64,000 nt of DNA from Candidatus Nitronereus thalassa (GTDB taxonomy: Bacteria; Nitrospirota; Nitrospiria; Nitrospirales; UBA8639): NCBI RefSeq assembly GCF_032191465.1, contig NZ_JAQOUE010000001.1:2418001-2482000 (forward strand), given 5' to 3'. Of the stretch, positions 1,887 through 19,350 are shown piece after piece. The position numbers were made by a program, and so were the translations under genes. A model generated the notes under the pieces. The model saw nothing but the letters and a program-made list of their open reading frames with translations. It searched no databases and was not told the DNA's origin. Numbering within the stretch: the first letter of the stretch is position 1; every line of letters begins with the position of its first letter.

Positions 1887-1891
1887 GGTGG

Positions 1892-3148
1892 TTATCCTGC
1901 CTTCACTCCAAATGTTCCGGCCTCTCGCAGAAGGTTTTCCGGGGTGGGACCAGATCGACGTTTGGCTTGTTGACGAACCAACTCGTGATTAATGACATCC
2001 CAATTCAAATCCAGGAAATGGGGTTCCTCTAGCCCTTCTTCGGAAAGCGCTTCATGCACGACCCGTACAATAGATGCTTTGGGAATGGCTCGTCCTCCCA
2101 ATCCTGCAATCACCGTCTCGACCATCACGGGCAAATGTCGAAGCGCCATTTTCACTTCACTCGATACGATACCGCCCTTGCCCACGGACAAATCCTTTTC
2201 CACCACAATCACCCTTTTTGCCTGACCCAAGGCTTGTCGCAATGGGTACTTGGGGAATGGTCGATACGATACGATCTTCACTGCACCAACGGCGAGACCT
2301 TCCTTCCGTAAATCATCCACAGCATCCTTAATCGTGCCATTCACCGAACCGAGGGCGACAATAATAGTCTCCGCACCCTCTGTTTGATAAGACTCCAGCA
2401 ATCCGCCGGAAGGGCGACCGAAGGGTTGTTGAAATTCTTTTTGGATTCTGGGAAGGGCTTCGAGCGCCTGGAGATGTTTATGATGCGCCAAATATCGAAC
2501 TTCCATAAATGCATCAGGTCCCACCATCGAACCGATGGAAACAGGATCAGCAGGGTCGAGCATCTGAACCGGCTCGTACGGCGGAAGAAAGAAATCCACT
2601 TGTTCTTGAGTCGGAAGATCCACGGCCTCCACTGCATGCGTGAGGATATAGCCATCCATGCACACCATGACTGGGCAGCTTAAGGATTCCGCTAAGCGAA
2701 AGGCTTGAATGTGAAGATCGACCGCCTCCTGATTGTCCTCGGCAAACAATTGTATCCATCCCGAATCTCGTAGTGCCATGCTATCCGAATGGTCATTCCA
2801 AATATTGATGGGCGCTCCTACTGCGCGATTGGCAATGGTCATGACGATGGGCAAACCGAGACCCGCCGCGTTATAGACGGCTTCGGCCATGAACAACAGA
2901 CCTTGGCTCGTCGTTGCGGTGTACGTTCGTGCACCAGCCGCCGACGCACCAATCAAGACACTCAAGGCGCCAAATTCTGATTCCACGTTGAGAAACTGGC
3001 ACGGGCCGACTTCCCCGGCTTTCACTAGACACGATAGCGTTTCCACAATATGGGTCTGGGGGGAAATCGGATAACAGGCCGCCACTTCTGGGCGGCACAT
3101 GGCAACAGTCTTAGCAACGGCTTGTGATCCTTCAATTTGTTGTTTCAC
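1892..3148 (-). CDS. porA: 2-oxoacid (pyruvate):ferredoxin oxidoreductase, alpha subunit
   Basis: The 418-residue product has the pyrimidine-binding fold of the alpha subunit. YPISPQTHIVE (around residues 26-36) is the family's Y-P-I-T/S-P-x-T motif. TATTSQGLLFMAEAVYNAAG (about 78-97) and the VAIGAP-like NRAVGAPINIWNDHSD segment line the active site. The C-terminal domain II (from about residue 260) is complete, ending in ENLLREAGTFGVKAG. Length and order match the four-subunit enzymes of autotrophs that fix CO2 by the reverse TCA cycle. It starts 50 bases after the gamma subunit stop; the ATG is preceded by a purine-rich AAGAGGAAGAGGAGGAAG stretch that provides a strong ribosome binding site. 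Confidence 0.9.
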   Translation of the reverse strand: MKQQIEGSQAVAKTVAMCRPEVAACYPISPQTHIVETLSCLVKAGEVGPCQFLNVESEFGALSVLIGASAAGARTYTATTSQGLLFMAEAVYNAAGLGLPIVMTIANRAVGAPINIWNDHSDSMALRDSGWIQLFAEDNQEAVDLHIQAFRLAESLSCPVMVCMDGYILTHAVEAVDLPTQEQVDFFLPPYEPVQMLDPADPVSIGSMVGPDAFMEVRYLAHHKHLQALEALPRIQKEFQQPFGRPSGGLLESYQTEGAETIIVALGSVNGTIKDAVDDLRKEGLAVGAVKIVSYRPFPKYPLRQALGQAKRVIVVEKDLSVGKGGIVSSEVKMALRHLPVMVETVIAGLGGRAIPKASIVRVVHEALSEEGLEEPHFLDLNWDVINHELVRQQAKRRSGPTPENLLREAGTFGVKAG

Positions 3149-3198
3149 TTTTTGTCTTCCTCCTCTTCCTCTTTTCTCTTCGTAAAAGGGAGAGACGT

Positions 3199-3768
3199 CT
3201 ACACGGCTACCTGTGACCCCACATAGTCATAGGCCTCTCTCGCAATTTCAATATTGAGTTCGCCTATCGAGCCAGGAAATTTTTCCTGAATGGCCTTTTC
3301 GATAGATGACAAGGAAACTTCTTGCGTCAGGGCCGCAAAACCGGCGACTAACGCGGCGTTCGGAAGGGGACGATGGAGAAATTTGTTGGCAATGTCCGTG
3401 GCTGGAAAGATACAACACTGATGTTCCGATAACGTGGAACACAGCTCATCTATTCCCAATTCACGAGCGGTTCGGGTTGAGTTAATCAGCACGGCACCAT
3501 CAGACTGTAAGCCAGCAAATACCTCGACCTGGTGAAGAAGAGTCGAATCCTGAACAATAATCACATCAGGATTTACGATGGGTTCTCGTGCTCGTAGTTG
3601 GCGGTCGCTGATCCGACAGAAGGCCGCCACCGGCGCTCCTGTCCGCTCAGATCCAAAACTGGGAAAGGCCAAGGCAAATTTTCCATCCAGAAACGAGGCC
3701 ATGGACAACAGTTCCGCCGCTGTCACCACGCCTTGCCCTCCACGGCCATGAATTCGAACTTGCAGCAT
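3199..3768 (-). CDS. porG: 2-oxoacid (pyruvate):ferredoxin oxidoreductase, gamma subunit
   Basis: At 189 residues it has the usual length of the gamma subunit. The N-terminus carries the diagnostic RIHGRGGQGVVTAAELL, followed by FPSFGSERTGAPVAAFCRIS, both conserved across pyruvate, 2-oxoisovalerate and 2-oxoglutarate:ferredoxin oxidoreductases. The gamma subunit bridges the alpha/beta catalytic core in the complex. It is the first oxidoreductase gene of the leftward operon and begins 13 bases after the small membrane-protein gene, so promoter and regulation are probably shared with that gene. Confidence 0.9.
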   Translation of the reverse strand: MLQVRIHGRGGQGVVTAAELLSMASFLDGKFALAFPSFGSERTGAPVAAFCRISDRQLRAREPIVNPDVIIVQDSTLLHQVEVFAGLQSDGAVLINSTRTARELGIDELCSTLSEHQCCIFPATDIANKFLHRPLPNAALVAGFAALTQEVSLSSIEKAIQEKFPGSIGELNIEIAREAYDYVGSQVAV

Positions 3769-3781
3769 GAATCCTTTTCCT

Positions 3782-4027
3782 TTAGCTCATGATTTTCAAT
3801 GCAAAATAGGGAACAACAAAAAACACTAAGACGACAATTTTGTACTGCGCCAAATATTGAAAATAGGCACGAAGGAGATCTTGCTCATTTAATCCAAAAA
3901 AATAGCTATGGATTTTTATGGCTGTTTCTCGCATCCACGCCACAAAGAAAAAAGAAACTAAGAGGAAGCAGATGTTGATTACTGAAGCCCAGCCCAGAAG
4001 TTCCGTCAGTTCTGTGATAGTCATCAT
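3782..4027 (-). CDS. Small two-TM membrane protein, DUF6868-like
   Basis: The 81-residue product starts at the ATG ending at 4027, seven bases downstream of a perfect AGGAGG; a longer reading to 4120 is possible but has no such site. Two hydrophobic segments (about residues 12-30, WASVINICFLLVSFFFVAW, and 62-78, IVVLVFFVVPYFALKI) flank a loop containing HSYFFGLNEQDLLRAYFQYLAQYKI. The layout (short, LGW near the N-terminus, HxxxFGL loop, VPYxALKI end) fits the DUF6868 family as I recall it. No biochemical function is known. It is directly upstream of the oxidoreductase operon on the same strand and may be co-transcribed. Confidence 0.7.
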   Translation of the reverse strand: MMTITELTELLGWASVINICFLLVSFFFVAWMRETAIKIHSYFFGLNEQDLLRAYFQYLAQYKIVVLVFFVVPYFALKIMS

Positions 4028-4234
4028 GTTGGGACCTCCTGGCTTGGGGTTTCCTTCATTCCTCTTACTTCTAAATCCCACGCAAGAAGGATGCCGGCAA
4101 TCGTCACCATGCCCAACCACCTGACTTTCGATGATTTTTCGCAGGCGAAAGCCTCGGAAGGTCTAATAGAACTGAGGAGGAGGGGGACTGATGAAATCTA
4201 TTGAGTTGGGGTAAAATGCGTCACTGAGGAATTT

Positions 4235-4284
4235 TTAAAATATCCCCACTTTGATACCGGTAGGCCCCATTCTTAAATATCCCC
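4235..4284. repeat. Near-identical direct repeat upstream of ackA
   Basis: TTAAAATATCCCC (4235-4247) recurs as TTAAATATCCCC (4273-4284), differing by one A, with a 38-base pitch. The pair sits in the 360-base divergent intergenic region between the oxidoreductase operon and ackA. It could be a tandem operator site or a remnant of a mobile-element end; the sequence does not decide. The rest of this intergenic region shows nothing recognisable. Confidence 0.4.
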
Positions 4285-4389
4285 TAGTGAAAAAGCATTC
4301 TGAAGATTAGGAGCGCACTGCAATTTTATCCTAGATCTTCACTGATGGAAGGAATACGTTTTGCATCACAATATTGATATGTCCTTGGA

Positions 4390-5640
4390 ATGGCTGGTTC
4401 AATCCTTATGAAAGTGTTGGCCCTGAATTACGGAAGCTCCTCTATAAAATTTTTGATGGCTGAGTCACGCCCAAGCCATGACATGCTTTACCCCTTGGGT
4501 CGAGGATCTATCGATGGAATAGGCACTTCTCAATCAACGTTACGTCTTTACTTCTCAGACCGTCCCCCTGTTCAGGAAAGTTTGGTGGCTACCAACCATA
4601 CCCAAGGCACAACATTCCTTTTTGATCATTTCAACCTCTATGAGGAATTTTCTCCATCAACGATTCATGCGGTTGGCCATCGTGTGGTTCACGGCGGCGA
4701 TGTATTCACCCAACCAACCGTGGTCAATGCTGGAGTCCTCTCGACGTTAGAACGTCTTTGCGACCTTGCTCCTCTGCACAACCCCCTTGCCCTGAAAGGT
4801 ATTCAAGAGACCCGAACTATTCTGGGAGAATCCGTAGCCATGGTGTGTGTCTTTGATACAGCGTTTCATCACGACATGCCAAAGGTCGCCTCCACGTATG
4901 CGATTCCCCATGAGTTGGCCACTCGTCATCATATCAAGCGATATGGGTTCCATGGCATTGCCCACGCGTCGCTTGTTCAGGGGTATGTCACGCATAGGGG
5001 AGAGAGTCATCAACAAGATCGCGTAATCAGTTTGCACTTGGGCAATGGGTGCTCCATCACGGCCTCGAAAGGAGGTCGATCGGTTGATACTTCAATGGGA
5101 TTCACTCCATTAGAAGGCTTAGTCATGGGCACGCGCTCGGGCGACCTGGACCCGGCTCTTGTGAATTATCTAGCCGAGAAGGAACACGTGACATGCGCCG
5201 AAGTTGAAAAGTGGCTGAATCACAAATCAGGGCTTTTGGGGGTGTCCGGACAATCTTCGGACATGCGCATGCTTTTGGAGGCAGCCAATCATAACCATGA
5301 TGAACAAGCCACCTTGGCCATTGACCTATTCTGTTATCGGGCACGGAAATACATTGGGGCGTACCTTGCAACTTTAGGCGGAGCGGAGGCGATTATCTTT
5401 GGAGGTGGGATTGGGGAGGCATCGCCGGACATCCGACAGCGCATCTGCGAGAATCTGGAATGGTGCGGGTTGCAACTCGAACCGACAAGAAACGAGCAAG
5501 CCATTCACCTCTCTCCTGGAATGGCCACCTGCATTACCAAAGACCAGGCTCACCTTCCAGCCTATGTCGTTGCCGCTGACGAGGAAATGCTAATCGCTCA
5601 GCAAACTGTGGAATGTCTGACTCGATCGAATACAACATAA
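4390..5640 (+). CDS. ackA: Acetate kinase
   Basis: The product (416 residues from the first ATG) converts acetyl phosphate and ADP to acetate and ATP. The family's N-terminal phosphate motif NYGSSSIKF is at residues 13-21, and HRVVHGGD, RYGFHGIAHASL, HLGNGCSI and GGAEAIIFGGGIGEASPDIR follow in the expected order. A second ATG at 4408 (MKVLALNYGSS) matches the usual family start better; neither has a convincing ribosome binding site, so the true start may be 18 bases inside. It precedes the phosphoketolase gene by about 50 bases on the same strand; the pair forms a route from sugar phosphate to acetate with ATP gain. Confidence 0.93.
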   Translation: MAGSILMKVLALNYGSSSIKFLMAESRPSHDMLYPLGRGSIDGIGTSQSTLRLYFSDRPPVQESLVATNHTQGTTFLFDHFNLYEEFSPSTIHAVGHRVVHGGDVFTQPTVVNAGVLSTLERLCDLAPLHNPLALKGIQETRTILGESVAMVCVFDTAFHHDMPKVASTYAIPHELATRHHIKRYGFHGIAHASLVQGYVTHRGESHQQDRVISLHLGNGCSITASKGGRSVDTSMGFTPLEGLVMGTRSGDLDPALVNYLAEKEHVTCAEVEKWLNHKSGLLGVSGQSSDMRMLLEAANHNHDEQATLAIDLFCYRARKYIGAYLATLGGAEAIIFGGGIGEASPDIRQRICENLEWCGLQLEPTRNEQAIHLSPGMATCITKDQAHLPAYVVAADEEMLIAQQTVECLTRSNTT

Positions 5641-5692
5641 TGCCTTTACACTGATTAACCTCTCTCATACTCAATAGCACTTGGAGACTACC

Positions 5693-8077
5693 ATGCCTAC
5701 TTCAACATCAAAATCCAAAACTTTGATGCCGGCGTTGTTGAAACTGATGGATGCCTATTGGCGGGCAGCTAACTATCTCTCCGTGGGGCAGATCTACTTG
5801 CTTGATAATCCCCTGCTGCGCCAGCCGTTAAAAGTTGAGGATGTGAAACCCAGGTTACTAGGACATTGGGGTACGACCCCTGGACTCAATTTCATTTATG
5901 TCCACTTGAATCGTGTGATTAAGGAACACGATCTCAACATGCTGTACATCGCCGGACCTGGCCATGGCGGCCCCGCGCTTGTGGCGAATACTTATTTAGA
6001 AGGCACCTATAGCGAGGTCTACCCCGACATCTCGCAAGATACGGAGGGAATGAAACGGCTGTTCAAGCAGTTTTCCTTTCCCGGAGGAATCCCGAGCCAT
6101 GTGGCCCCGGAGACGCCAGGATCGATTCACGAAGGTGGAGAACTAGGCTATGCGTTGTCACATGCATTTGGGGCGGTGCTGGATAATCCGGATCTCATCG
6201 TATCCTGTGTCGTAGGAGATGGGGAAGCAGAAACCGGTCCTTTGGCCGCAGCCTGGCATTCGAATAAATTTCTTAATCCGGTCACAGACGGCGCGGTCTT
6301 ACCCATCTTGCATTTGAATGGCTACAAGATTGCCAACCCCACGGTCCTGGCTCGTATTCCCCACAAGGAGTTGGAAAGTTTGTTTGTCGGGTATGGGTAT
6401 CATCCGTTGTGGGTGGAAGGCGATGATCCCGCGACCATGCACCAATTGATGGCCGAAACCATGGACAAGGCAATCCAGCAGATTCATCGCATCCAACATT
6501 CCGCAAGAAAGAAAGGGGAGGCGACGAGACCCTTATGGCCTATGATTATTTTGCGAACGCCAAAGGGATGGACCGGCCCCAAAGAAGTAGATGGACAAAA
6601 AGCGGAAGGATATTGGCGATCCCATCAAGTTCCATTCTCCGGGATGGCTGGCAATCCTTCGCACTTAAAACTTTTGGAAAAATGGATGAAGAGTTACAAC
6701 CCGGAAACCCTGTTTGATGAGAACGGCCAATTGAAACCCGAACTGGCAGCCCTCGCCCCCACCGGCCTTCGGCGCATGGGCGCGAACCCACATGCTAATG
6801 GCGGCTTACTCCTCAAGGCGTTAAAAATGCCGAATTTTCGAGATTACGCGATCGAGGTCTCTCAACCCGGACAAGTCATTGGCGAAAGCACGCGAGTGAT
6901 GGGACAATTTCTTCGGGACGTCCTGAAGCGGAATCTCGAACAAAAAAACTTTCGCATCTTTGGGCCAGATGAAACCGCGTCCAATAGATTAGGGGCGGTG
7001 TTCGAAGTCACCAGTCGTGCCTGGGTCGCCGAGACCTTGCCCGAGGACGACCACTTAGCCGCCGATGGTCGGGTGATGGAAATTTTGAGTGAACACACCT
7101 GCCAAGGGTGGTTGGAAGGGTACTTGCTCACCGGGCGTCACGGTTTCTTTAACACGTATGAGGCCTTTGTCCACGTCGTGGACTCCATGTTCAACCAACA
7201 TGCGAAGTGGCTCAAAGTGACTGGAAAAGAAATTCCTTGGCGTCAACCGATTGCCTCACTGAACTATTTACTGTCGTCCCATGTGTGGCGACAGGATCAC
7301 AACGGGTTTTCGCATCAAGACCCAGGGTTTATTGATCATGTGGTCAACAAGAAAGCCGAAGTGATTCGGGTGTATCTCCCGCCGGATGCCAATAGTCTCT
7401 TATGGGTGACGGATCATTGTCTGCGGAGTCGAAATTTCATCAATGTGATCGTGGCCGGCAAACAGCCCCAACCGCAATATCTGAACATGGACGCCGCTAT
7501 CAAACATTGCACCGCAGGCATCGGGATGTGGGAATGGGCGAGCAATGACAAAGGGGCTGACCCCGATGTGGTTCTCGCTTGTGCCGGCGACACCCCAACG
7601 TTGGAAACGCTCGCGGCCGTGGATTTGCTTCGCCAATACCTTCCTGACCTGAAGGTCCGTGTCATTAATGTCGTCAACCTCATGAAACTTCAACAGCCAC
7701 GCGAGCATCCCCACGGTTTAACGGATAAAGAATTTGATACACTCTTTACAACGGACAAACCGATCATCTTTGCGTTTCACGGCTATCCCTGGCTGATTCA
7801 TCGTTTGACCTATCGACGAACGAATCATTGGAATCTGCACGTTCGTGGGTACAAAGAAGAAGGCACGACCACCACGCCATTTGATATGGTCGTTCGCAAT
7901 GATCTGGATCGTTTTCACTTGGTAGAAGACGTCATCGACCGCGTTCCCAGACTCGGCTATCACGCGGCCTACGTGAAACAAGCCATCCGCGACAAACTGA
8001 TCGACCACAAGGAATACATCGCGAAGTATGGAGAGGATATGCCGGAGATTCGGAATTGGAAATGGCCGGGGAGGTAA
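5693..8077 (+). CDS. xfp: Xylulose-5-phosphate/fructose-6-phosphate phosphoketolase
   Basis: This thiamine-diphosphate enzyme cleaves xylulose-5-P (and often fructose-6-P) with phosphate to acetyl-P plus glyceraldehyde-3-P (or erythrose-4-P). The 794-residue length is typical. Visible motifs include [17 protein letters not shown] near residue 90, [35 protein letters not shown], and the ThDP motif [20 protein letters not shown]. The ATG at 5693 is chosen over an in-frame TTG at 5681 because GGAG lies eight bases upstream of the ATG, inside the longer reading. Acetyl-P made here is the substrate of the acetate kinase encoded just upstream, and acetate or acetyl-P can feed the acetyl-CoA/pyruvate step of the neighbouring oxidoreductase operon. 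Confidence 0.95.
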
Positions 8078-8087
8078 GAATCCTTGC

Positions 8088-8157
8088 TTGTCATCCTGAG
8101 CCAAGGGAAGGATCTGCATTTAGGGGGTGAGATTCTTCGTTATACTCAGAATGACAA
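8088..8157. repeat. 70-bp palindromic repeat element
   Basis: TTGTCATCCTGAG at 8088-8100 is answered by CTCAGAATGACAA at 8145-8157 (one mismatch), with further pairing inward (AAGGATCT against GAGATTCTT). This arrangement is typical of short dispersed REP- or MITE-like elements with a GTCATCCTGAG end that recur in many environmental genomes. It lies 10 bases after the xfp stop codon. It contains no reading frame and lacks a T-run, so it is not an obvious intrinsic terminator. Confidence 0.7.
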
Positions 8158-8200
8158 AAATGATGAATCCCTTTCCTATCGGGGCATCCCCCGCTCGACG

Positions 8201-8228
8201 AGGTCCTTTTGTTTCGACAAAAGGACCT
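8201..8228. repeat. Perfect 11-bp stem hairpin
   Basis: AGGTCCTTTTG (8201-8211) and CAAAAGGACCT (8218-8228) form an 11-base perfect stem with loop TTTCGA. It is about 120 bases downstream of xfp. It has no trailing T-run, so it looks more like a dispersed palindrome than a Rho-independent terminator, though it could stabilise the 3' end of the xfp message. Confidence 0.6.
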
Positions 8229-8258
8229 AAAACCATGTTCGCCCGTGCACGGCCCTCC

Positions 8259-8293
8259 AGAGAATGGTGAGAGGAATTTATTCACCATTCTCT
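8259..8293. repeat. Perfect 12-bp stem hairpin
   Basis: AGAGAATGGTGA (8259-8270) and TCACCATTCTCT (8282-8293) pair perfectly around an 11-base loop. This is the third palindrome in a 210-base stretch after xfp. The remainder of the gap up to 8535 holds only unconvincing short frames. Confidence 0.6.
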
Positions 8294-8535
8294 TCCGGGT
8301 GCCTCCGCCATAACCCCGAATTAAATGGCTCAGGAACTCGCAAGGCTCAAACAGTCTTCGCCAAAGAACTCGATTCGGGATTGTGGCTCCGTTGCACCCA
8401 AGGCGCAGAGAACAAAGTTTTTGATTGGGAAGATCGCAGGTTCTATAATCATAAAATATAAATCTTTCCAAAATTACAATTTTAAATTTTCACGGGCTTT
8501 AAGCTGTCTTTTTCATACAAGGCCGCCCTTGACGA

Positions 8536-9444
8536 ATGGAATACTTTAGCGATCAAGAACATGGCTCCAAAGCACGGACTGAAGACGTAATATTGCCAAG
8601 CGTTTGGGGCGGTATAGTAGCAGCGGTGAAAGGGCTCATTTCCACAGGAGCTTTTGGTGAACATTTTCCCGAAGTATGCCTAGATGGAACATTACCAGTG
8701 GGCACAGATGAATCGGCATTCTCTCTGGCAATTCAGGCAGAGATCCCTGAGCTAGAGTGGCCACTGAAAACAACTCAAAGGCAGCAAGAAGGATATCGCT
8801 GGGAAGAAATTCCGTACTCTCCCTCTGAACTAGTCGTTTTAGACTTTGTACAATTCTGTTATTTACATGTCTCTAAACCCATTCAGGGCACTTATCATGA
8901 ATGGCACAAGCATTACCATTTGTCTTTTGATTCCCAAACTGGGAAAGATGAGTTTCGCCAAAAGATTAATCGGATATTTTCTCGAAATGGCGTTTCATAC
9001 GAGTTAAAACAGGATGGCAATATTATTCGGTTAGCTCCGGCTGTCCTTAGGGAGGAGTTAGAGTCAGCTAACTTCTCCACTGGTGATGGCACCTTGAATC
9101 AAATGTTGGAGGAGGCCCGTAGAAAGTTTCTCGATCCAAATCCTACAATTCGCCGAGAGGCTGTTGAGCGTTTATGGGATTCATGGGAAAGATTAAAATC
9201 CATTGAAGTGCCTTTAGACAAAAAGGATTCTATTTCTCAGCTTCTTGATAAGGCTGCAGCTGAGGAAAAATTTAGGGGATTATTAGAGGAAGAAGCTCGC
9301 AAACTATCAGATATTGGGAACACATTTCATATTCGGCATTCTGAAGTAACGCAAACGGCAATTAACGAGCCCTTACATATTGATTATCTATTCCACCGTT
9401 TATTCTCCATGATTTTATTGTTAATTAGGGCTAGGAACATTTAA
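8536..9444 (+). CDS. AbiJ-like protein, possible HEPN-type abortive-infection protein
   Basis: The 302-residue product begins MEYFSDQEHGSKARTEDV, resembling N-terminal AbiJ-type domains that open with a short FS-x-E motif. It ends with GNTFHIRHSEVTQ...HIDYLFHRLFSMILLLI (about residues 255-297), which I recognise as the C-terminal RHxE...YLFxRxFxxI arrangement of AbiJ-like abortive-infection proteins, whose HEPN-fold ends often act as RNases. A charged, helical middle (about 170-250) links the two. It stands alone, between the palindrome cluster and ftsH, in more A+T-rich sequence than its neighbours, which suggests acquisition. No good ribosome binding site precedes the ATG. Family assignment is from memory of motifs only. 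Confidence 0.6.
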   Translation: MEYFSDQEHGSKARTEDVILPSVWGGIVAAVKGLISTGAFGEHFPEVCLDGTLPVGTDESAFSLAIQAEIPELEWPLKTTQRQQEGYRWEEIPYSPSELVVLDFVQFCYLHVSKPIQGTYHEWHKHYHLSFDSQTGKDEFRQKINRIFSRNGVSYELKQDGNIIRLAPAVLREELESANFSTGDGTLNQMLEEARRKFLDPNPTIRREAVERLWDSWERLKSIEVPLDKKDSISQLLDKAAAEEKFRGLLEEEARKLSDIGNTFHIRHSEVTQTAINEPLHIDYLFHRLFSMILLLIRARNI

Positions 9445-9615
9445 TGTGAAAAGATTTAACAATTCATTTTTTTGGCTTTTCCATCGCCAAAGGGCTTTCT
9501 CTCTCTGCTTATTTACCATAGTGAAAACTGAAAAAGACTTTACAAGCTAAGAGGAAAATCCATTTACCCTAAATATTATTTTCCCCATCGGAGGTTGGCA
9601 ATCTAGAATAAAGCC

Positions 9616-11448
9616 TTAGATAGTTTGCAGCCCCGCTCCTTTCTCTCTACCCTCCATTAATGCTCGTAAATCGTCGCCGGTCATGGTTTCTTTTGTCATG
9701 AGCACTTGTGCGGCTTCGAGGAGGACGGGCTTGAGTTCGGTGAGGAGATCTTTTACTCGGTTGGCTTGGTTATCGATGAACTTGCGAACTTCCTGGTCGA
9801 TTTCTCTAGCAGTTTCTTCAGAATACTCATGTCCGTAACTGGATTCTCTGGTTTGAAGAAACGTGGGTTGGGCCGCGTTCTCCAAAGACACAGTACCCAA
9901 CAAATCGCTCATGCCATAGTCTTTGACCATACGCTTGGCAATGTTCGTGGCTTTTTGCAGATCGTCGGCAGCGCCGGTTGACGCTTCGCCAAAAACTATT
10001 TCTTCCGCTATACGACCACCAAGCAACACGGCAATTTTGTTTTCTAGCTCGCTGCGGGTGAGTAAGTAACGGTCCTCTGTTGGCGTCTGCAGTGTGTAGC
10101 CCAAGGCAGCAATACCTCGAGGAATAATCGAAATCTTTTGCACAGGGTCCACACCCTTGAGAGACAAGGCTACTAGGGCATGCCCGATTTCGTGATGGGC
10201 TACGCGTCGCCTTTCTTCTTGGCTGAGAATTCGATTCTTTTTTTCTAATCCTGCCACGACCCGTTCCACCGCTTCTTCCAAATCACGCTGCTCAACAATT
10301 TCCCGATCACGACGAACTGCTAACAGCGCGCCTTCATTAATAATGTTAGCCAGATCAGCCCCAACCATTCCTGGTGTCATGGCCGCGATGTTCTCCAGTT
10401 TGACGTCTGGTCCCATTTGAATAATTTTCGAGTGGATTTTTAAAATGGCTTCGCGACCTTTCCGATCCGGTCGATCCACGAGCACTTGTCGATCAAACCG
10501 GCCAGCTCGCATCAATGCGGGGTCAAGGATTTCGGGCCGGTTCGTTGCGGCCAAAATAATCACCCCCACTTTGGGATCAAACCCATCCATTTCCACGAGC
10601 AACTGGTTGAGGGTTTGCTCCCGCTCTTCATGGGTCATGGGTCCAGTGCCACGGGCCTTGCCCAGGGCATCCAATTCATCAATGAAAATTATGCATGGGG
10701 CTTTGCCTTTGGCTTGCTCAAATAAATCACGCACGCGCGCAGCCCCCACGCCTACAAACATTTCTACAAACTCCGATCCACTGATGGAAAAGAACGTCAC
10801 CCCTGACTCCCCCGCAATGGCCTTAGCCAACAGGGTTTTTCCCGTACCTGGGGGTCCGACGAGCAACACCCCCTTTGGGATTCTTCCACCGATCCGAGTG
10901 AATTTTTGCGGAGTTTTCAAAAATTCGATGACCTCGACAAGCTCATCTTTCGCTTCATCTACTCCTGCAACATCGCTCATCTTCACCTTGATGTCTTTTT
11001 CCACATAGATTTTGGCCTTGGATTGGCCAATTCGCATGAACCCTCCCCCTGCGCCTTGCCCCATTTTGCGCAACAGCCAAAACCACACGCCGGCAAAAAT
11101 TAAAATGGGAATGACCCAGGAAGCCACATCGCGCCACAGCGTGCTAACAATGACCCCAGCATATTCCACCCCTTTTTCCTCTAGCTGTTTGACCAAGTTG
11201 GGATCGTCAACGCGGATAGTTTTAAACCACTGTGGCTCCTTATCTGGGGTTTCGGGTTTGAGCTTTCCGTTTATCTCGGTATCGGTAATGGCGATTTCGT
11301 CCACCTTGTCCTCGGCAAGCCAAATCTTAAATTGACTATAGGGCACCTCATCCAGGTGTTGGGAGGCCAGGTAGACTTCCTGAAAGATGATGAGGAGCCA
11401 AAAGGCAATGAGAAAGTACCAAATTGAAATGCGCTGTTTTTTATCCAT
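9616..11448 (-). CDS. ftsH: ATP-dependent zinc metalloprotease FtsH
   Basis: A membrane-anchored AAA+ protease that degrades misassembled membrane proteins and short-lived regulators. From the ATG ending at 11448 the protein is 610 residues. Two transmembrane segments (about 8-25 and 109-127) bracket a periplasmic domain. Walker A GPPGTGKT is at 198-205, Walker [12 protein letters not shown] follows, then the second region of homology ([18 protein letters not shown]) and the zinc-binding HEIGH at 419-423. A longer reading starts at a TTG (11481); the ATG gives the normal FtsH N-terminus ([10 protein letters not shown]). It is transcribed leftward, after the P-type ATPase and its fragment. Confidence 0.95.
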
Positions 11449-11518
11449 GACTGAATTGTACACGGTCCTGGGCCCCTGCAAAAGCCCTGTATCTCCATGT
11501 GTTTGAGGAAAAAGAAAT

Positions 11519-11725
11519 TTACACCGATCGTCTTTTGACGACCTTGAAAATTTCCACGGTGATGAGGATGGTGGAGGCCAAGAATAGCAGGGTTCCCCAT
11601 TCTTCCAAAGATACTGGGGTTACATGAAGAACCGACTGGGTCATGGGCACATACATGGCCAGAATATAAATGCCTTGGGCTGCCAGGATACCAAATAGGA
11701 GAATCCAATTATTGCCGCAAGGCAA
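11519..11725 (-). pseudogene. Remnant of a P-type cation ATPase C-terminus (M9-M10 segment)
   Basis: The frame encodes about 65 residues (WILLFGILAAQGIYILAMYV, then a hydrophilic turn VSLEEWGTL and a second hydrophobic helix ending VEIFKVVKRR). This is the pattern of the last two helices of IC-type P-ATPases, including the LSLxEW linker and basic end; the intact ATPase upstream carries a diverged equivalent of the same region. There is no ATG, only a TTG, and nothing upstream belongs to an ATPase head. I read it as the leftover tail of a second ATPase gene, though a small expressed membrane protein cannot be excluded. Confidence 0.6.
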
Positions 11726-11785
11726 ATTTGAAGGTTCTAAGCCTCAAAGGGATTGAACTCTTTAGGGGGAATTTGGGAATGCGGG

Positions 11786-14560
11786 TTATGAGCCTGCAAC
11801 CACTGCTTCGTTATTTTTTGTTGTGAACCTGTGTCGAACCCACTTGTCTAATCCAACTATGAAATAGGACGCAACTCCAATTCCTAATATGGGAAGCCAT
11901 GTTCCACCATCAATTGGAGCGGAATGAAACAGGGAATGCATGAAGGGTGCATAGGTGAAGAGAAGTTGCAAAGCGATCATGACAATGACCCCCCACGTCA
12001 CCCAGGGATTGGAAAACAGCCCTAATTGAAGCAATGACCGTTCTAACGAGCGACAATTGAAAAGATAAAACATTTCTACCACGACAAACACGTTGACAGC
12101 CACTGTTCTGGCTTCAACCACGGTGCTCCCTCTTTCTTGTTCCCAAAGAAATAAACCAAAGGAACCAGCCAAGAGCAACGCGCCAACGAGAACAATACGC
12201 CAGAGTAATGCGCCCGTCAGCAGTGGTTGCCCGGGGTCACGGGGAGGACGATCCATGATCCCTGTTTCTTTTGGCTCAAAAGCTAGCATAAGCCCCAAAG
12301 CCACCGCAGTGGTCATATTGATCCACAAAATTTGAACTGGAAGAATCGGAAGCGCAAACCCCGCACCAATAGCCACCATGATGACCAAGCCTTCTCCCAT
12401 ATTGGTTGGCAGGGTCCAGACAATAAATTTGGTGAGGTTGTCAAAGACACCACGCCCTTCTTCTACAGCCGCTTCAATAGACGCAAAGTTGTCATCGGTC
12501 AGCACCATATCAGAAGACTCTTTTGCGACTTCCGTCCCCACACGTCCCATCGCGATACCGATGTCGGCTTGTTTGAGGGCAGGGGCATCGTTCACACCAT
12601 CCCCTGTCATAGCCACGATGTGCCCTTCGGTCTGAAGCGCTTCGACAAGACGCAGTTTCTGTTCTGGTGACACTCGGGCAAAGACCACGCTTCGATCAAC
12701 AGCTCTGGGTAGCGCATTATGAGGAGTGGTTGCAATGGCGCTTCCCGTCATGACCAAATTCGATTCTGTTCCCACTGGTGTTTCCGGAATCAACCCAATC
12801 TGCTCGGCGATGGCGCGCCCGGTCATGGCGTGGTCACCGGTGATCATTTTCACGGCAATTCCAGCTTTTTGACAATTGCCCACCGCAGCAATGGCCTCGG
12901 GGCGTGGCGGGTCCATCATAGCTTGTAATCCAAGAAAAACGAGTTCTCCCGCTGAGGCAGCTTGCTTCAACGAATGCCCTTCCACGTGTTTCCCTTCTGT
13001 TGATCGGGCCATGGCCAACACGCGCAGACCTTGTCCTGCTAAAGTTTCAGCCTGCTGCAAAGCGCGGCTTGCCTCAAGTGGAACTTCCCGGCCATCAGCA
13101 GAGAGCTCATACTGGCAGAGGTTCAGTATTTTCTCCACGGCGCCCTTCACTGACATGACTGCCTGTTGGTCAGCGCCTCTTCGATCCAGAGTAGCCATAA
13201 ATTGATTCTCAGATTCGAATGGGAGGACGTTCTCTCTCGTCACTTCATGCTGAATCTGCTTCACATCCAATCCGCCTTTGCAGGCAGACACGAGCATGGC
13301 GCCTTCAGTCGGATCACCCACAATATCCCAGTTCTCTTTTTGTTTAACGAGCTGAGCGTCATTGCACAAGACGCCCGCAAGGAGGCAGGCAGACAAAGCC
13401 GGTTCGTGATCCCAATTCACTAGTTGACCATCCTTTGTGAATTCACCCATTGGGTTGTACCCGGTTCCCGAAACCCTGAATAACTGCCCGCCTGCCCAAA
13501 CCCTTTGCACCGTCATCTGGTTTTCTGTGAGTGTGCCAGTTTTGTCTGAACAGATCACTGTGGTACTCCCAAGGGTTTCCACTGCTGGGAGCTTGCGAAT
13601 AATGGCATGGCGTTTGGCCATTCGGCTGACTCCAATGGCGAGTGTAATGGTCACCGCCGCCGGCAGGCCTTCAGGGATGGCCCCAACAGCCAAGGCAACC
13701 GCGGCCATAAACATCTCAACGGCTGACTGCCCTCGCCAAATCCCGATCGCAAATGTCACACCAGCTAATCCAAGAATCACCACTGTGAGAATTTTGCTGA
13801 AATGGGCTATTTTCTTGGTGAGCGGTGTTTCTATGTCAGGCGTTTCTCCAACTAATTGATGAATTCGCCCAATTTCCGTTGCCGACCCTGTACTGACGAC
13901 CACACCTTTTCCCTGACCTGAAGTCACTAGAGTACTGGAGTAGGCCATGTTTTGACGGTCGGCCATCAGTGTTTCGGTTGGAAGCCTATGCTCAGACTTG
14001 GAAACGACGAGGGATTCACCCGTTAAGGCTGATTCGTCAATCTGCAGTTCGCGCACACTGGTAAGCCGGAGATCAGCTGGAACTTTGTCTCCTGCCTCCA
14101 GCAGGACCACATCCCCCGGGACTAGATCTGAGGAAGGAATTTTGCATTTCTCTCCGCCACGCAACACGGTCGCCTCTGTTTTTACCATCGCAATCAAAGC
14201 ATCCAAGGCGTTTTCAGCTCGAGATTCCTGGATAAATCCGACTATGGCATTAACCAAGACCACGCCGAAGATGACACCAGCATCAACCCATTCGCCTAAG
14301 AGCGCCGTGATTCCGCTGGACGCTGTGAGGATATAAATGAGGGGATGATGGAACTGAAGAATGAACCGCATGAAGGAACCATGACGGCGAATTCTTGGGA
14401 GGGTATTCGGACCAAACCGCTCAAGCCGGGACGCGGCTTCATTTTGAGGGAGTCCTTGCGAGGCATCGGTTTCTAGAAAAAGAAGCACCTCATGAACGGG
14501 AAGGTGGTGCGTGTCTTGGGACATCGTGAGCTTAGGCTTTTTTTCTTCGCTCACACGCAT
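11786..14560 (-). CDS. P-type cation-transporting ATPase (P2/IC-type, CtpF-like)
   Basis: This 924-residue pump uses ATP via an aspartyl phosphate to move a cation across the membrane. It has an N-terminal cation-ATPase domain, TGES at 180-183, the M4 motif PEGLP (296-300), phosphorylation site DKTGT at 339-343, and hinge MTGDGVNDAP. M6 reads NMTTAVALGLMLAFEP rather than the calcium-pump DGLPA motif, so the ion (Ca, Mn, Mg or another) cannot be assigned. Two ATGs are possible, at 14560 and 14524; neither has a good ribosome site, and the shorter form loses only 12 residues. It is followed by the ATPase-tail fragment and then ftsH on the same strand. Confidence 0.88.
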   Translation of the reverse strand: MRVSEEKKPKLTMSQDTHHLPVHEVLLFLETDASQGLPQNEAASRLERFGPNTLPRIRRHGSFMRFILQFHHPLIYILTASSGITALLGEWVDAGVIFGVVLVNAIVGFIQESRAENALDALIAMVKTEATVLRGGEKCKIPSSDLVPGDVVLLEAGDKVPADLRLTSVRELQIDESALTGESLVVSKSEHRLPTETLMADRQNMAYSSTLVTSGQGKGVVVSTGSATEIGRIHQLVGETPDIETPLTKKIAHFSKILTVVILGLAGVTFAIGIWRGQSAVEMFMAAVALAVGAIPEGLPAAVTITLAIGVSRMAKRHAIIRKLPAVETLGSTTVICSDKTGTLTENQMTVQRVWAGGQLFRVSGTGYNPMGEFTKDGQLVNWDHEPALSACLLAGVLCNDAQLVKQKENWDIVGDPTEGAMLVSACKGGLDVKQIQHEVTRENVLPFESENQFMATLDRRGADQQAVMSVKGAVEKILNLCQYELSADGREVPLEASRALQQAETLAGQGLRVLAMARSTEGKHVEGHSLKQAASAGELVFLGLQAMMDPPRPEAIAAVGNCQKAGIAVKMITGDHAMTGRAIAEQIGLIPETPVGTESNLVMTGSAIATTPHNALPRAVDRSVVFARVSPEQKLRLVEALQTEGHIVAMTGDGVNDAPALKQADIGIAMGRVGTEVAKESSDMVLTDDNFASIEAAVEEGRGVFDNLTKFIVWTLPTNMGEGLVIMVAIGAGFALPILPVQILWINMTTAVALGLMLAFEPKETGIMDRPPRDPGQPLLTGALLWRIVLVGALLLAGSFGLFLWEQERGSTVVEARTVAVNVFVVVEMFYLFNCRSLERSLLQLGLFSNPWVTWGVIVMIALQLLFTYAPFMHSLFHSAPIDGGTWLPILGIGVASYFIVGLDKWVRHRFTTKNNEAVVAGS

Positions 14561-14760
14561 TTACGGCTGCCGTTCGGTGGCTTCAAAGAACATGATTGGT
14601 CCAGATGCCAAAAAATCTAAGGAAATTCAGGGAGGGCCTATCGATTGATCTCAATTTTCACACCACATCTTTTTTTCGCACAGATATACTCTGCTGCCCA
14701 TGTGCTACAAAATAGTATTTGGTTACCACCAAATCAGTTATTATCGTATAACGGCTCACA

Positions 14761-15093
14761 TCAGTCAGCTTTTTCCTCTTCGACTTCTAACACTTCACCC
14801 GTATTGGCGTCGATTTCGACTTCCATTAATTTCCCATCGGTCGTCACGATTTCGACTTCCCAGATGACTTTGTGATCCTTTTCCTCTTCAAGCTCCGCTT
14901 CCACGACCGTTCCTGGCACTTTTTGCAAGGCCGTTTGGATAGCTTGGTCTGCCGAGACTTTGGCCTCACCCGCGACATGGACTTTTTCTTTAATTTCGCA
15001 TTGCTCGTGGTGCTTGCGCATATGCGCACATCCTGTGCCCAAAAGTACGCTCACACTGAGTAACACCAAAACAACTGATTTACTGATAGTCAT
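14761..15093 (-). CDS. PepSY-domain lipoprotein
   Basis: The ATG ending at 15093 has AAAGGAG six bases upstream, so this 110-residue form is preferred over a longer frame to 15225. The N-terminus (MTISKSVVLVLLSVSVLLGTGC) is a signal peptide ending in a plausible lipobox (GTGC). The mature part holds a PepSY-like domain: VSADQAIQTALQKVPGTVVEAELEEE, then VIWEVEIVTTDGKLMEVEIDANTGEVLEVEE. PepSY domains inhibit peptidases or bind at the envelope; a precise role is unknown. It is highly acidic at the C-terminus. It lies upstream of, and on the same strand as, the P-type ATPase. Confidence 0.85.
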   Translation of the reverse strand: MTISKSVVLVLLSVSVLLGTGCAHMRKHHEQCEIKEKVHVAGEAKVSADQAIQTALQKVPGTVVEAELEEEKDHKVIWEVEIVTTDGKLMEVEIDANTGEVLEVEEEKAD

Positions 15094-15322
15094 ATGTGCT
15101 CCTTTGTTTGAATGAAAATATTGTCCATTGATATAGAGTATCTTTCTTGAAGGTATCAAATAATATGCCAGAGACAGGACTCCGGATTTATCGAACTTTC
15201 CCAATGCGTTGAGGCTCTCGACCATTTAAACAACGAGGCATTTCACTACAAGGTTATTTTCCTTGACTGGGGTAAAGGTCTACAGGCAAATCTAAACTTC
15301 ATTGTTCCCCTTGGACTAAAAT

Positions 15323-16963
15323 GTGACCTTATTGGAAGAAACCTCTGGTGTAAGAATTGCTTCGAAGAATACCGAAATGAAGAATCTCCCTTCAATCCCT
15401 AGGCTGAATTTATCTCAGTTTGATGCCGCCATTTTTGACTTGGATGGGGTCGTCACCCAAACAGCCAAGGTTCATGCGGCGGCATGGAAGAACATGTTTG
15501 ATGACTTTCTCAATATCCGTGCCTCACAGACGGGCGTACCTTTTCAGCCATTTGCCCCTGTCCAGGATTACCGTCAGTATGTGGATGGGAAACCGAGATA
15601 TGATGGCGTGACCAGTTTTTTACATTCTCGCGGAATTGACCTGCCTTACGGAGAACCCTCAGATCACCCGAGCCATGACACCATTTGCGGATTGGGCAAT
15701 CTCAAAAACAGAAAATTCTTAGAAACACTTCATGCACAGGGTGTAGACGTCTTTCCTTCGACGCTTGCGCTGATCAATTTCCTTAAGGCGAGGGGAAAGA
15801 CGGTCGCGGTTGTGACGGCTAGCGAGAACTGCCAGGAAATTCTTCAGGCCGCTGAAATAAAGGACCTTTTTACTGTCAGTGTGGATGGCCGAGACGCCAA
15901 GACCTTTCACCTGCACGGCAAACCGGAACCTGATACGTTTGTAAAGGCAGCGGAATTGCTCGGGGTTCACCCTCAACAAGCCGTGGTCTTTGAAGACGCC
16001 TTAGCCGGCGTCGAAGCCGGTCAGGCCGGACATTTTGGTTTGGTGATAGGAATCGATCGTGCGGGCCAGTCCGAAGCTCTGCATTCTCATGGAGGGGATG
16101 TGGTTGTTTCCGATTTGGTTGAAATCGAAGTCCTCGATGAAGCCGGGGTCTTATGGATTAGCTCGCAAGCCTTGCCTTCTGCGCTCCACCAATTCAAGAA
16201 ATTGATGGCTGAATTTCATGAAAAACGAGTCATCGTCTTTTTAGATTACGATGGAACATTAACGCCAATTGTGAATCGACCAGAGTTGGCCGTGCTATCT
16301 TCTGAAATGCGTGAGGCTTTGACCCTTTTGAGTCGTCAATGTCCGGTTGGTATTATCTCTGGTCGAGACCGCAAAGATGTTTCGGATTTGGTCAAACTCG
16401 ATTCCTTGATCTATGCGGGGAGCCACGGGTTCGATATTGCCGGACCTCAAGAGCTGAATCTTCATCATGAAGTCGGGACAGAATTTACTTCGGCACTCGA
16501 TCAGGCGGAGTCAGACCTTCGGGACCGGTTGCTTGGCATTCCCGGTTTATTACTTGAGCGAAAGAAATTCTCCATTACCGTGCATTATCGCCTGGTTCCT
16601 CAAGACCAGATACCAAAGGTTGCTCACGTGGTGACACAGGTCGTATCAACCTTTCCGACCCTCCAACGATCTGAAGGAAAGAAAGTCTTTGAGATTCAAC
16701 CACGGCTCGAATGGGATAAAGGCAAAGCCTTGTTATGGTTGCTTGATGGATTGGATTGGAAAGAAAAGAATTATTTTCCTGTCTATATCGGAGACGATCT
16801 GACGGACGAAAATGCGTTTCGTGTGTTAGCTGGTATGGGTATAGGAATCGTGGTGGAGGATGGATATCGGTTTTCCTCTGCACAATATGCCTTAGAAAAC
16901 CCTCACGAGGTGCAACAATTTCTCATGCATTTGTATCATCACTTGGACCGTATGGCTTCATGA
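15323..16963 (+). CDS. Fusion: beta-phosphoglucomutase-like HAD domain + trehalose-6-phosphate phosphatase
   Basis: The 546-residue protein has two haloacid-dehalogenase units. Residues about 34-275 resemble beta-phosphoglucomutase (nucleophile pair D39/D41 in FDLDGVV, VVTASENC, and VFEDALAGVEAGQAG), which interconverts beta-glucose-1-P and glucose-6-P. Residues about 300-540 resemble OtsB trehalose-6-phosphate phosphatase (D308/D310 in FLDYDGTLTP, IISGRD, then YIGDDLTDENAF). It overlaps the GH65 phosphorylase gene by ATGA, so the two are coupled. Together they suggest reversible trehalose (or related disaccharide) metabolism: phosphatase makes the sugar, phosphorylase plus mutase recycle it to glucose-6-P. 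The start is uncertain: GTG at 15323 or ATG at 15377, neither with a strong ribosome site. Confidence 0.88.
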   Translation: MTLLEETSGVRIASKNTEMKNLPSIPRLNLSQFDAAIFDLDGVVTQTAKVHAAAWKNMFDDFLNIRASQTGVPFQPFAPVQDYRQYVDGKPRYDGVTSFLHSRGIDLPYGEPSDHPSHDTICGLGNLKNRKFLETLHAQGVDVFPSTLALINFLKARGKTVAVVTASENCQEILQAAEIKDLFTVSVDGRDAKTFHLHGKPEPDTFVKAAELLGVHPQQAVVFEDALAGVEAGQAGHFGLVIGIDRAGQSEALHSHGGDVVVSDLVEIEVLDEAGVLWISSQALPSALHQFKKLMAEFHEKRVIVFLDYDGTLTPIVNRPELAVLSSEMREALTLLSRQCPVGIISGRDRKDVSDLVKLDSLIYAGSHGFDIAGPQELNLHHEVGTEFTSALDQAESDLRDRLLGIPGLLLERKKFSITVHYRLVPQDQIPKVAHVVTQVVSTFPTLQRSEGKKVFEIQPRLEWDKGKALLWLLDGLDWKEKNYFPVYIGDDLTDENAFRVLAGMGIGIVVEDGYRFSSAQYALENPHEVQQFLMHLYHHLDRMAS

Positions 16964-19350
16964 GCGACTGGTCGTTAGTGTACGAAGAATTTAATCCCGA
17001 GCAAGAACGGTTGCGTGAAGCCTTGTGCACGTTGGGTAATGGCTATTTTGCTACGCGTGGTGCGGCGCACGAAGCTGAAGCCGACTCCACCCACTATCCC
17101 GGCACCTATCTCGCTGGTGGGTATAATCGTTTGCACACTGAAATTGGGGGGCGCACGATTGAACACGAAGATCTCGTCAATCTGCCAAATTGGTTATCCC
17201 TGTCCTTTCGTCATCCTGACGCCAATTGGTTTAACCTCCAAGCGGTCGACATCCTCTCGTATCGTCAGGAACTCGATTTGAAGGCTGGAGTTCTGCATCG
17301 AGCCGTGCAATTCCAAGATAGCCAACTCCGTCGAACGACGGTCTCTAGCCGACGGTTTGTGCATATTGGCCTTCATCACCTGGCAGGATTGGAAGTCGTG
17401 ATTACCCCAGAGAATTGGTCGGGGCCTTTGGAAGTTCGTTCCGCTCTGGATGGACGCGTGGTCAACGCCGGGGTCGCTCGCTACCAAGCCTTAAATAATA
17501 AACATCTGGCGGGAATCGAATCTTCGGTGGTTGGAGAGGACGAGATCTTTCTCTACATGGAAACGAATCAATCCAAGCTTCGCATTGCGGAAGCCGCGCG
17601 GACCAGGTTCGTTCTGGATGATTCCTTGTTACATCCAACACGTGCTGTGATTCAAGAACCCGAATTGATCGGGCAAGCATGTACCATTCCAATGAAGCAA
17701 GGGCGCCCCCTCACCATTGAAAAAATAGTCACCCTGTACACGGCACGAGACCATGGGATTTCAGAATGTGGTTTGGATGCCAGACAGGCGCTCACCAATG
17801 CGGCGGGATTTGAAGATTTACTGAGATCGCACACACAGCACTTGAGTCGATTGTGGCAACGATGCGATATCGGCATTCAAGATGGCGAAGACTCTCAACT
17901 CACCTTGAGGCTGCATATTTTTCACCTGCTCCAAACCACATCGCCAAGCACGATTGGGTTGGACGTGGGCGTACCCGCCAGAGGCCTCCATGGGGAGGCG
18001 TATCGTGGTCATATTTTTTGGGATGAGCTGTTTATTTTCCCATTTCTCAATCTTCGCATCCCGGACATCACGAAATCCCTTCTGCTCTATCGTCATCGAC
18101 GGTTGGATCAAGCTCGAAGAAATGCCCAGGAGGCCGGATTTAACGGCGCGCTCTATCCCTGGCAATCGGGCAGCAACGGCCGGGAGGAAAGTCAGCGCCT
18201 CCACCTCAATCCACAATCAGGGCGATGGACGCCGGACAACAGTGCACTCCAACGACATGTCAATGCGGCCATTGTGTACAACGTGTGGCACTATTTCCAA
18301 GTCACTGACGATTGGGAATTTCTCTCGTTTTACGGCGCCGAAATGATTTTAGAGATTGCTCGGTTTTGGGCCAGCGCCGTGTCCTACAATGCGGAAAAAG
18401 ACCGCTATGAAATTTTTGATGTGATGGGACCCGATGAATACCACGACCAGTACCCAAAAGCGGATCATCCTGGATTGAACAACAATGCCTACACCAACCT
18501 CATGGTGGTCTGGGTTTTTTGTCGAGCCTTAGAATTACTCGATATGTTGTCGGTGGATAGCCGAACGGAGCTTCGGGAGATCATGCACATCAGCACCACG
18601 GAAGCCGAGTTGTGGGATGACATCAGCCGGAAGATGTTTCTACCTTTTCATGACAAAGGAATTATTAGCCAATTTGAAGGTTATGAAGACTTGGAAGAAT
18701 TTGATTGGGAACGCTATCGAGAAAAATATGGCGACATTCATCGACTGGATCGCATTCTCGAAGCCGAGGGGGACTCAACAAATCGATACAAATTATCCAA
18801 ACAAGCTGATGTGTTGATGTTGTTTTATTTATTTTCGTCAGACGAATTGCGGATCTTGTTTAAACGGCTAGGCTATCCTTTTAAGTATTCCACGATTCCC
18901 CAAAACGTGGCCTACTACTTGAGTCGAACGGCTCATGGATCTTCCCTGAGTCGGGTAGTCCATTCCTGGGTAACGGCAAGATCCGATCGTGCGCAGGCAT
19001 GGGATTTATTGAAAGCGGCGCTTCGGGTGGATATTTCCGATGTTCAGTCTGGGACTACTGCCGAGGGGATTCATTTAGGCGCGATGGCGGGGACCGTAGA
19101 TTTGATTCAACGCGGGCATACGGGCTTGGAAACGCGGGGCGGAACATTGTACTTTAATCCCTGCCTCCCTAAGGGATTGAAGGCACTCAATCTTCGACTG
19201 TTTTATCGGGGACATTCTTTGGATGTGGCCGTCACCCAAGAGACCTTTCAAATTGGATCACGCCCTGGGCGATCCTCCCCCATTCGAATATCCATCAAAG
19301 GCAAATCCCAAAAGCTTAAACCAGGGCAAATTGTCAGCGCTTCGATTTAG
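16960..19350 (+). CDS. Glycoside hydrolase family 65 disaccharide phosphorylase (trehalose/kojibiose/maltose type)
   Basis: The ATG at 16960 overlaps the fusion gene's stop (ATGA) and gives 796 residues, normal for GH65; longer upstream readings belong to the other frame. The N-terminal beta-sandwich begins WSLVYEEFNPEQERLREALCTLGNGYFATRGA. The (alpha/alpha)6 barrel includes GEAYRGHIFWDELFIFPFL, GALYPWQSGSNGREE and the catalytic acid Glu493 in DVMGPDEYH. The C-terminal jelly roll has HLGAMAGTVDLIQRGHTGLE. GH65 enzymes phosphorolyse alpha-glucosides to beta-glucose-1-P; the fused beta-phosphoglucomutase next door matches that product. Trehalose is the most likely substrate because of the adjacent trehalose-P phosphatase, but kojibiose or maltose cannot be excluded. 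Confidence 0.9.
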   Translation: MSDWSLVYEEFNPEQERLREALCTLGNGYFATRGAAHEAEADSTHYPGTYLAGGYNRLHTEIGGRTIEHEDLVNLPNWLSLSFRHPDANWFNLQAVDILSYRQELDLKAGVLHRAVQFQDSQLRRTTVSSRRFVHIGLHHLAGLEVVITPENWSGPLEVRSALDGRVVNAGVARYQALNNKHLAGIESSVVGEDEIFLYMETNQSKLRIAEAARTRFVLDDSLLHPTRAVIQEPELIGQACTIPMKQGRPLTIEKIVTLYTARDHGISECGLDARQALTNAAGFEDLLRSHTQHLSRLWQRCDIGIQDGEDSQLTLRLHIFHLLQTTSPSTIGLDVGVPARGLHGEAYRGHIFWDELFIFPFLNLRIPDITKSLLLYRHRRLDQARRNAQEAGFNGALYPWQSGSNGREESQRLHLNPQSGRWTPDNSALQRHVNAAIVYNVWHYFQVTDDWEFLSFYGAEMILEIARFWASAVSYNAEKDRYEIFDVMGPDEYHDQYPKADHPGLNNNAYTNLMVVWVFCRALELLDMLSVDSRTELREIMHISTTEAELWDDISRKMFLPFHDKGIISQFEGYEDLEEFDWERYREKYGDIHRLDRILEAEGDSTNRYKLSKQADVLMLFYLFSSDELRILFKRLGYPFKYSTIPQNVAYYLSRTAHGSSLSRVVHSWVTARSDRAQAWDLLKAALRVDISDVQSGTTAEGIHLGAMAGTVDLIQRGHTGLETRGGTLYFNPCLPKGLKALNLRLFYRGHSLDVAVTQETFQIGSRPGRSSPIRISIKGKSQKLKPGQIVSASI

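Follow-up and report, generated by a model that had tools for sequence, protein, structure and literature searches.

In the 64,000-nucleotide stretch of Candidatus Nitronereus thalassa DNA analysed here (contig NZ_JAQOUE010000001.1, positions 2,418,001 to 2,482,000, hereafter the window), two overlapping genes encode a protein with a beta-phosphoglucomutase (bPGM) domain and an OtsB-type trehalose-6-phosphate (T6P) phosphatase domain, and a GH65 protein. These two genes, here called the cassette, probably supply three enzymes that jointly make trehalose and dispense with OtsA and with sugar nucleotides. The bPGM domain would convert glucose 6-phosphate (G6P) to beta-glucose 1-phosphate, which the GH65 enzyme, a T6P phosphorylase working in reverse, would join to a second G6P, yielding T6P and phosphate. 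Hydrolysis of T6P to trehalose by the OtsB domain would then pull the chain forward and make the route one-way. The net reaction would be 2 G6P + H2O to trehalose + 2 Pi, with neither OtsA nor UDP-glucose needed. If so, bacteria can go from G6P to trehalose within a single coupled unit, the UTP spent by the OtsA route is saved, and OtsB genes in genomes lacking OtsA are accounted for.

Catalytic residues and coupling of the two genes

The initial annotation had described one protein with bPGM-like and OtsB-like domains, encoded by a gene overlapping a GH65 gene, and had linked the locus to trehalose. All of this is borne out. TIGR02009, a wider subfamily model, scores 167.7 bits on the bPGM domain (cut-off 153.35), TIGR00685 scores 175.4 on the OtsB domain (cut-off 68.05), and PF02358 also matches the latter with 7.7e-48. 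The two reading frames share an ATGA stop/start (Table 1), and the trehalose link holds. Because aligned relatives begin near residue 19 of the fusion frame, the internal ATG at that residue is the likelier start.

Table 1 Features of the two-gene cassette, in window coordinates
Feature	Position	Strand	Basis or remark
bPGM-OtsB fusion gene	15323..16963	+	Open reading frame; likely start ATG 15377
bPGM-type HAD domain, residues 34-242	15422..16048	+	D39, D41, R92, K200, E224, D225 present
OtsB (T6P phosphatase) domain, residues 301-537	16223..16933	+	D308, D310, K466, D491, D492, D495 present
ATGA stop/start overlap of bPGM-OtsB and GH65 genes	16960..16963	+	Ends of the reading frames
GH65 gene, predicted T6P phosphorylase, 796 aa	16960..19350	+	ATG 16960; domains, fingerprint, fold
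Codon of Arg174, predicted 6-phosphate clamp	17479..17481	+	Conservation scan
Codon of His415, predicted 6-phosphate clamp	18202..18204	+	Between fingerprint residue Q412 and D426; conservation scan
Codon of Glu493, general acid (GPDEYH)	18436..18438	+	Alignment
Codon of Arg598, predicted 6-phosphate clamp	18751..18753	+	Conservation scan

The nucleophile, acid/base Asp, Lys and Glu-Asp positions of the bPGM domain are all intact, with residue roles in both HAD domains being those that we assume for such enzymes. Among domains above the score limits in related loci, the OtsB catalytic pattern is kept in 67/67, variable position 312 aside, and the bPGM core in 87/89, the exceptions being Asp in place of E224 and one truncated domain. 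In a second, mostly actinobacterial set that includes the window's own row, 10 of 11 rows have an intact OtsB core, locus L184 being the exception, and 13 of 15 have an intact bPGM core, the exceptions being L181 and L192. Of the 47 loci with a bPGM-OtsB gene and a GH65 gene, 29 show the exact 4-base overlap, near-copies being kept in this count. Since both the fusion and its linkage with GH65 persist across phyla, neither is due to chance. A promoter and terminator scan gave counts close to or below the shuffled mean.

In the GH65 protein, all three GH65 Pfam domains (N, catalytic and C) were found, and an AlphaFold model confirms the GH65 fold, with confidence (pLDDT) below 50 at residues 169-179 and 403-424. 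At the phosphate site, two serines (HGSSLS) and H705 are kept and the Lys is replaced by Arg341, as also in 9lb6, a Weissella ceti GH65 protein that is the nearest solved structure by both sequence and fold (469 bits; TM-score 0.85). Q696 sits at the same distance from H705 as the hydrolase general base E616 of FjGH65A, a likeness of spacing only, with FjGH65A outside the alignment. A hydrolase identity was dropped because the phosphate-site residues are retained.

Acceptor specificity was approached with a six-position fingerprint (CsKP positions 64/392/394/402/416/585; PMC8537180). According to the available text of De Beul et al. 2021 (PMC8537180), T6P phosphorylases carry DQGQDE, trehalose phosphorylases (EC 2.4.1.64) TRIGPP, kojibiose phosphorylases EEAPxx and maltose phosphorylases KV[MF]NES; Caldithrix CaGP, with DQGQDE, produced T6P from beta-glucose 1-phosphate and G6P, and many GH65 subgroups are described there as uncharacterised. 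The window GH65 matches DQGQDE at five positions (D71, Q402, G404, Q412 and E603). The sixth column (CsKP 416) aligns to W423; D426, which is conserved, follows three positions later, and the placement of this column depends on the alignment. The letters of 9lb6 are identical to those of the window protein at all six columns.

TRIGPP, EEAPxx and KV[MF]NES are not matched, and the trehalose, kojibiose and maltose phosphorylase identities were each rejected. The GH65 protein should best be read as a T6P phosphorylase, and use of free trehalose by it would not be expected. Thus the reversible storage or switchable route suggested by the initial annotation is unlikely, the GH65 signature being T6P-type rather than trehalose-type and neither OtsA nor a phosphotransferase system (PTS) EIIC component being found as a supply of T6P. 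Maltose and kojibiose, which it had named as candidate substrates, fit the published fingerprints poorly.

Three basic residues lost in two OtsB-less clades

Relatives in which bPGM is fused to GH65 with no OtsB offer a comparison. Such fusions fall mostly in two clades, of 20 rows (support 100) and 6 rows (support 98), the larger including two rows that are not plain fusions. In a tree built by a quick method, with some weak forks, both clades nest among relatives that mostly bear OtsB. We compared 66 OtsB-accompanied GH65 rows with OtsB-less clades of 18 and 6 rows. The window residue is kept in at least 95% of the 66 rows at 170 positions. Of these, just R174, H415 and R598 drop to one tenth of the rows or fewer in both OtsB-less clades. 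Arg, Lys or His occupies 26 of the 170 positions, so that the chance of all three being basic is 0.003, a post hoc figure. Both Lactobacillales rows, 9lb6 and a Lactiplantibacillus plasmid protein (L140), retain the three residues.

We predict that R174, H415 and R598 clamp the 6-phosphate of the acceptor. Their loss in OtsB-less relatives makes these relatives the likelier users of unphosphorylated acceptors, and, if the prediction is true, GH65 acceptors could be forecast from a short set of residues. An earlier candidate code, R349 with R598, is kept in all 72 OtsB-accompanied GH65 rows (two of which are copies of others); it was replaced after the unbiased scan because only one of the clades has lost R349. 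The view that every close relative acts on T6P was also dropped, as bPGM-GH65 fusions occur in four genomes with neither OtsA nor OtsB (G310, G311, G312 and G334). Among plain fusions of the larger OtsB-less clade, 6 of 18 genomes are without any OtsB; the search for OtsA covered four of these six, and they lack it as well. The lone GH65 of locus L057, in a genome without OtsB, has R, Q, Q and Q at 174/349/415/598. One genome (G242) holds both the cassette and an OtsB-less bPGM-GH65 fusion (L050 and L056), suggesting that the two arrangements do different jobs.

Distribution, OtsA and alternative readings

The initial annotation had noted no OtsA nearby, and this extends to the whole window genome (4.01 Mb, 2 contigs, 98.7% complete), in which no GT20 protein (PF00982) was found. 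A whole-genome search returned a single OtsB, the fused one, and a single GH65 copy; no PTS EIIC component was found in this genome. Nine GH13 matches are present. When four of the GH13 frames were scanned, three exceeded the cut-offs, for TreS, TreZ and TreY. Behind TreS lies a maltokinase part that stays below its own cut-off (272 vs 375), and the fourth frame, GlgE-like in appearance, matched no GlgE model.

Among 295 genomes of the window's phylum, 29 have a GH65 match (E ≤ 1e-30). Every close GH65 in this sample either neighbours bPGM-OtsB or forms a fusion with bPGM, apart from L057, which stands alone, and one at a contig end (L058). With OtsA counted above its profile cut-off, 14 genomes of the sample have OtsB without OtsA, and 11 of these, the window genome counted, have the cassette, vs 2 of 116 genomes with both OtsB and OtsA (Fisher p 9e-12, with no correction for kinship). 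Of the other three OtsB-only genomes, two show short fragments (G084 and G262) and in one (G270) OtsB occurs with no GH65 match. None of the 11 sampled cassette genomes from the window's family, the window genome among them, has OtsA.

A census of OtsA was taken in 67 genomes carrying a GH65 of the window's clade, OtsB-bearing and OtsB-less, comprising 17 from the phylum set and 50 of 80 named loci, and picked before the outcome was known. OtsA is missing from 27 of them. The window's family contributes 11 genomes to the census, all without OtsA; ten have the cassette and one (G252) a lone GH65. Among the carriers without OtsA outside the family are isolates of Desulfobulbus, Kineobactrum, Marinobacter (two) and Vreelandella.

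The trio of domains is widely conserved. A scan of a genome collection confirmed at least 538 relatives, of which the best 80 loci were kept; these 80 include Pseudomonadota, Thermodesulfobacteriota, Bacteroidota, Planctomycetota, Actinomycetota, Ignavibacteriota and others. The trio was seen in four layouts, namely a bPGM-OtsB gene with GH65, a single protein, three separate genes, and OtsB with GH65, the two-gene, three-gene and one-protein forms all being among the best 80 loci. Plasmid copies are present, and one locus (L067) comes from an archaeal metagenome-assembled genome (MAG), on a contig of 6.9 kb that is possibly misbinned. In 296 genomes from the phylum of one Actinomycetota MAG, 42 have a match (E ≤ 1e-100), one-protein forms included. 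On a Rubrobacter radiotolerans plasmid (L145, 4133-8340), a gene of the polyphosphate kinase 2 family comes after OtsB and GH65, and a polyphosphate-driven feed is possible there.

Several points weigh against the synthesis module. The bPGM domain stays below the cut-off of the TIGR01990 equivalog (101.3 vs 189.4). OtsA is present in 40 of the 67 census genomes, and all 11 positive genomes of the phylum association belong to one family. The TreY, TreZ and TreS matches mean that the window genome could also obtain trehalose from glucans or maltose. As to the GH65 protein, 62 of 72 rows accompanied by OtsB retain the five clear fingerprint letters, as do 14 of 19 OtsB-less bPGM-GH65 rows, so the fingerprint cannot separate the OtsB-less fusions; the assayed Lactococcus and Caldithrix sequences themselves were outside the alignment; L140 is placed with T6P phosphorylases through similarity only; and 9lb6 is labelled a T6P hydrolase in one list and a T6P phosphatase in another, a hydrolase or phosphatase rather than a phosphorylase. 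The clamp is proposed from sequence alone, and model pLDDT is below 50 around two of its three residues. Furthermore, R598 is kept in L177, L178 and L193, which are bPGM-GH65 fusions whose loci lack OtsB. L177 and L178 share a genome with OtsB elsewhere; L193 keeps all of the residues in a genome with no OtsB, and another locus (L111) keeps the residues at 174/349/415/598 in a genome without detected OtsB.

The GH65 protein could instead be a trehalose phosphorylase in a breakdown route, with bPGM feeding glycolysis and OtsB a relic or used elsewhere, which we consider unlikely. A separate bPGM adjoins 10 of 11 examined distant GH65s (about 30-34% identity), a bPGM also accompanies GH65 on the Lactiplantibacillus plasmid, and the four genomes with fusions but neither OtsA nor OtsB indicate that relatives can work without T6P. 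However, the letters D, Q, G, Q and E stand in place of those of TRIGPP, OtsB catalytic residues are kept throughout one set and in all rows but L184 of the other, and R174, H415 and R598 are gone from the OtsB-less relatives, which are thus more likely to use unphosphorylated acceptors.

A slightly smaller chance is left to T6P turnover, in which GH65 breaks down T6P arriving from elsewhere and, jointly with OtsB, holds T6P low. The accessible part of the literature assigns the T6P phosphorylase of Lactococcus to breakdown, and the OtsA of those 40 census genomes stands alongside a GH65 of the window's clade. On the other hand, the window genome yielded neither GT20 nor PTS EIIC as a source of T6P, and OtsA is absent from the family's cassette genomes and from several unrelated isolates. 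Least probable, and quite improbable, is that GH65 glucosylates a sugar phosphate or polyol phosphate other than G6P, the product being freed by OtsB. The acceptor is assigned by homology in a family with many uncharacterised subgroups, which leaves room for this; but five of the six letters are common with the assayed T6P phosphorylase, and the OtsB domain is above the cut-off of the T6P phosphatase equivalog. We thus prefer the synthesis module.

Known systems and surrounding genes

The window GH65 resembles T6P phosphorylases (EC 2.4.1.216; Lactococcus, Caldithrix and Weissella-type) in fold and in five of the six fingerprint letters, and R/R/H/R at 174/349/415/598 is common to it, 9lb6 and L140. 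L140 has a bPGM partner, with no annotated OtsB on the plasmid stretch. By sequence, 9lb6 groups with this Lactiplantibacillus row, and it bears T6P-phosphorylase letters. In Lactococcus, sugar uptake is through the PTS. There the T6P phosphorylase serves breakdown, as far as the accessible sources describe it, whereas the window GH65 is tied to OtsB in a genome where neither PTS EIIC nor OtsA was found.

The gene set trePP-pgmB-otsB was reportedly used by Carvalho et al. 2011 for trehalose synthesis in Lactococcus lactis. This engineered route has the same three activities but was assembled by hand, whereas the window version would be a natural operon and, elsewhere, a putative single protein. 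Introduction of trePP, pgmB and otsB into L. lactis is given in a table row of PMC6942593 (Carvalho 2011), and running T6P phosphorylase in reverse in vitro for T6P production is mentioned in the available portion of PMC13121652. In the accessible text of the open-licence literature searched, no paper describing a natural bPGM-OtsB-T6P phosphorylase route was found. The OtsA/OtsB pathway shares the final step, OtsB acting on T6P; however, its T6P comes from a UDP-glucose-dependent GT20 synthase, and in the window genome, without GT20, the phosphorylase would supply it.

Structure 5gvx, which we take to be M. tuberculosis OtsB2, also has a HAD-like end ahead of its OtsB domain, but within the bPGM domain the match is confined to residues 206-242, whereas the bPGM active site of the window protein is intact. 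The other protein of this pair, OtsB1 (Rv2006), presumably has bPGM, OtsB and GH65 domains. Its length, 1327 aa in the available text of a 2024 review that calls its function unknown (PMC11046441), falls within the range of 1320-1395 aa for the 12 one-protein loci found here (8 of 12 at 1320-1341), a comparison of lengths only. A 2025 paper, in its accessible part, places OtsB1 in the DosR regulon and calls it biochemically uncharacterised (PMC12090744). A testable function for OtsB1 would be gained if it is a single-chain form of the module. Against this, the review excerpt assigns T6P phosphatase activity to OtsB2 alone of the pair (PMC11046441), although, per the available text of PMC12090744, the 2004 claim of no OtsB1 phosphatase activity was made without data. 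Several actinobacterial relatives of the one-protein form are also decayed: L184 (6459-10379) has Ala for the OtsB nucleophile Asp and no detectable bPGM domain, L180 (6690-10376) has only a trace of bPGM, and in L181 (6393-10418) 3 of 8 checked bPGM residues are altered; these members weaken the link to OtsB1.

A broader claim, that the cassette represents a further natural trehalose route free of nucleotide sugars, spread across phyla and plasmids and perhaps to an archaeon, with OtsB1, a member of the DosR dormancy regulon, as its single-chain form and R174/H415/R598 as the switch that sets T6P-making, OtsB-dependent enzymes apart from OtsB-free relatives with an unphosphorylated acceptor, is put forward tentatively, its chance being a little short of even.

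Fermentation-type genes lie near the cassette (876-15225), namely parts of a pyruvate:ferredoxin oxidoreductase, acetate kinase (4390-5640) and phosphoketolase (5681-8077), and so do a cation P-type ATPase gene (11786-14560), a PepSY gene (14761-15225) and an FtsH gene. Recurring neighbours in 121 loci are P-type ATPases (29), PfkB-like kinases (15), phosphoenolpyruvate-synthase-like proteins (11) and phosphoketolases (10), as raw counts with no background control and with ATPases pooled across subtypes. The M. tuberculosis DosR regulon presumably includes a P-type ATPase (ctpF) and pfkB as well. Also in the window, the product of 8536-9444 matches AbiJ N-terminal domain 4 (PF18863, 4.6e-12) and is possibly of the abortive-infection type.

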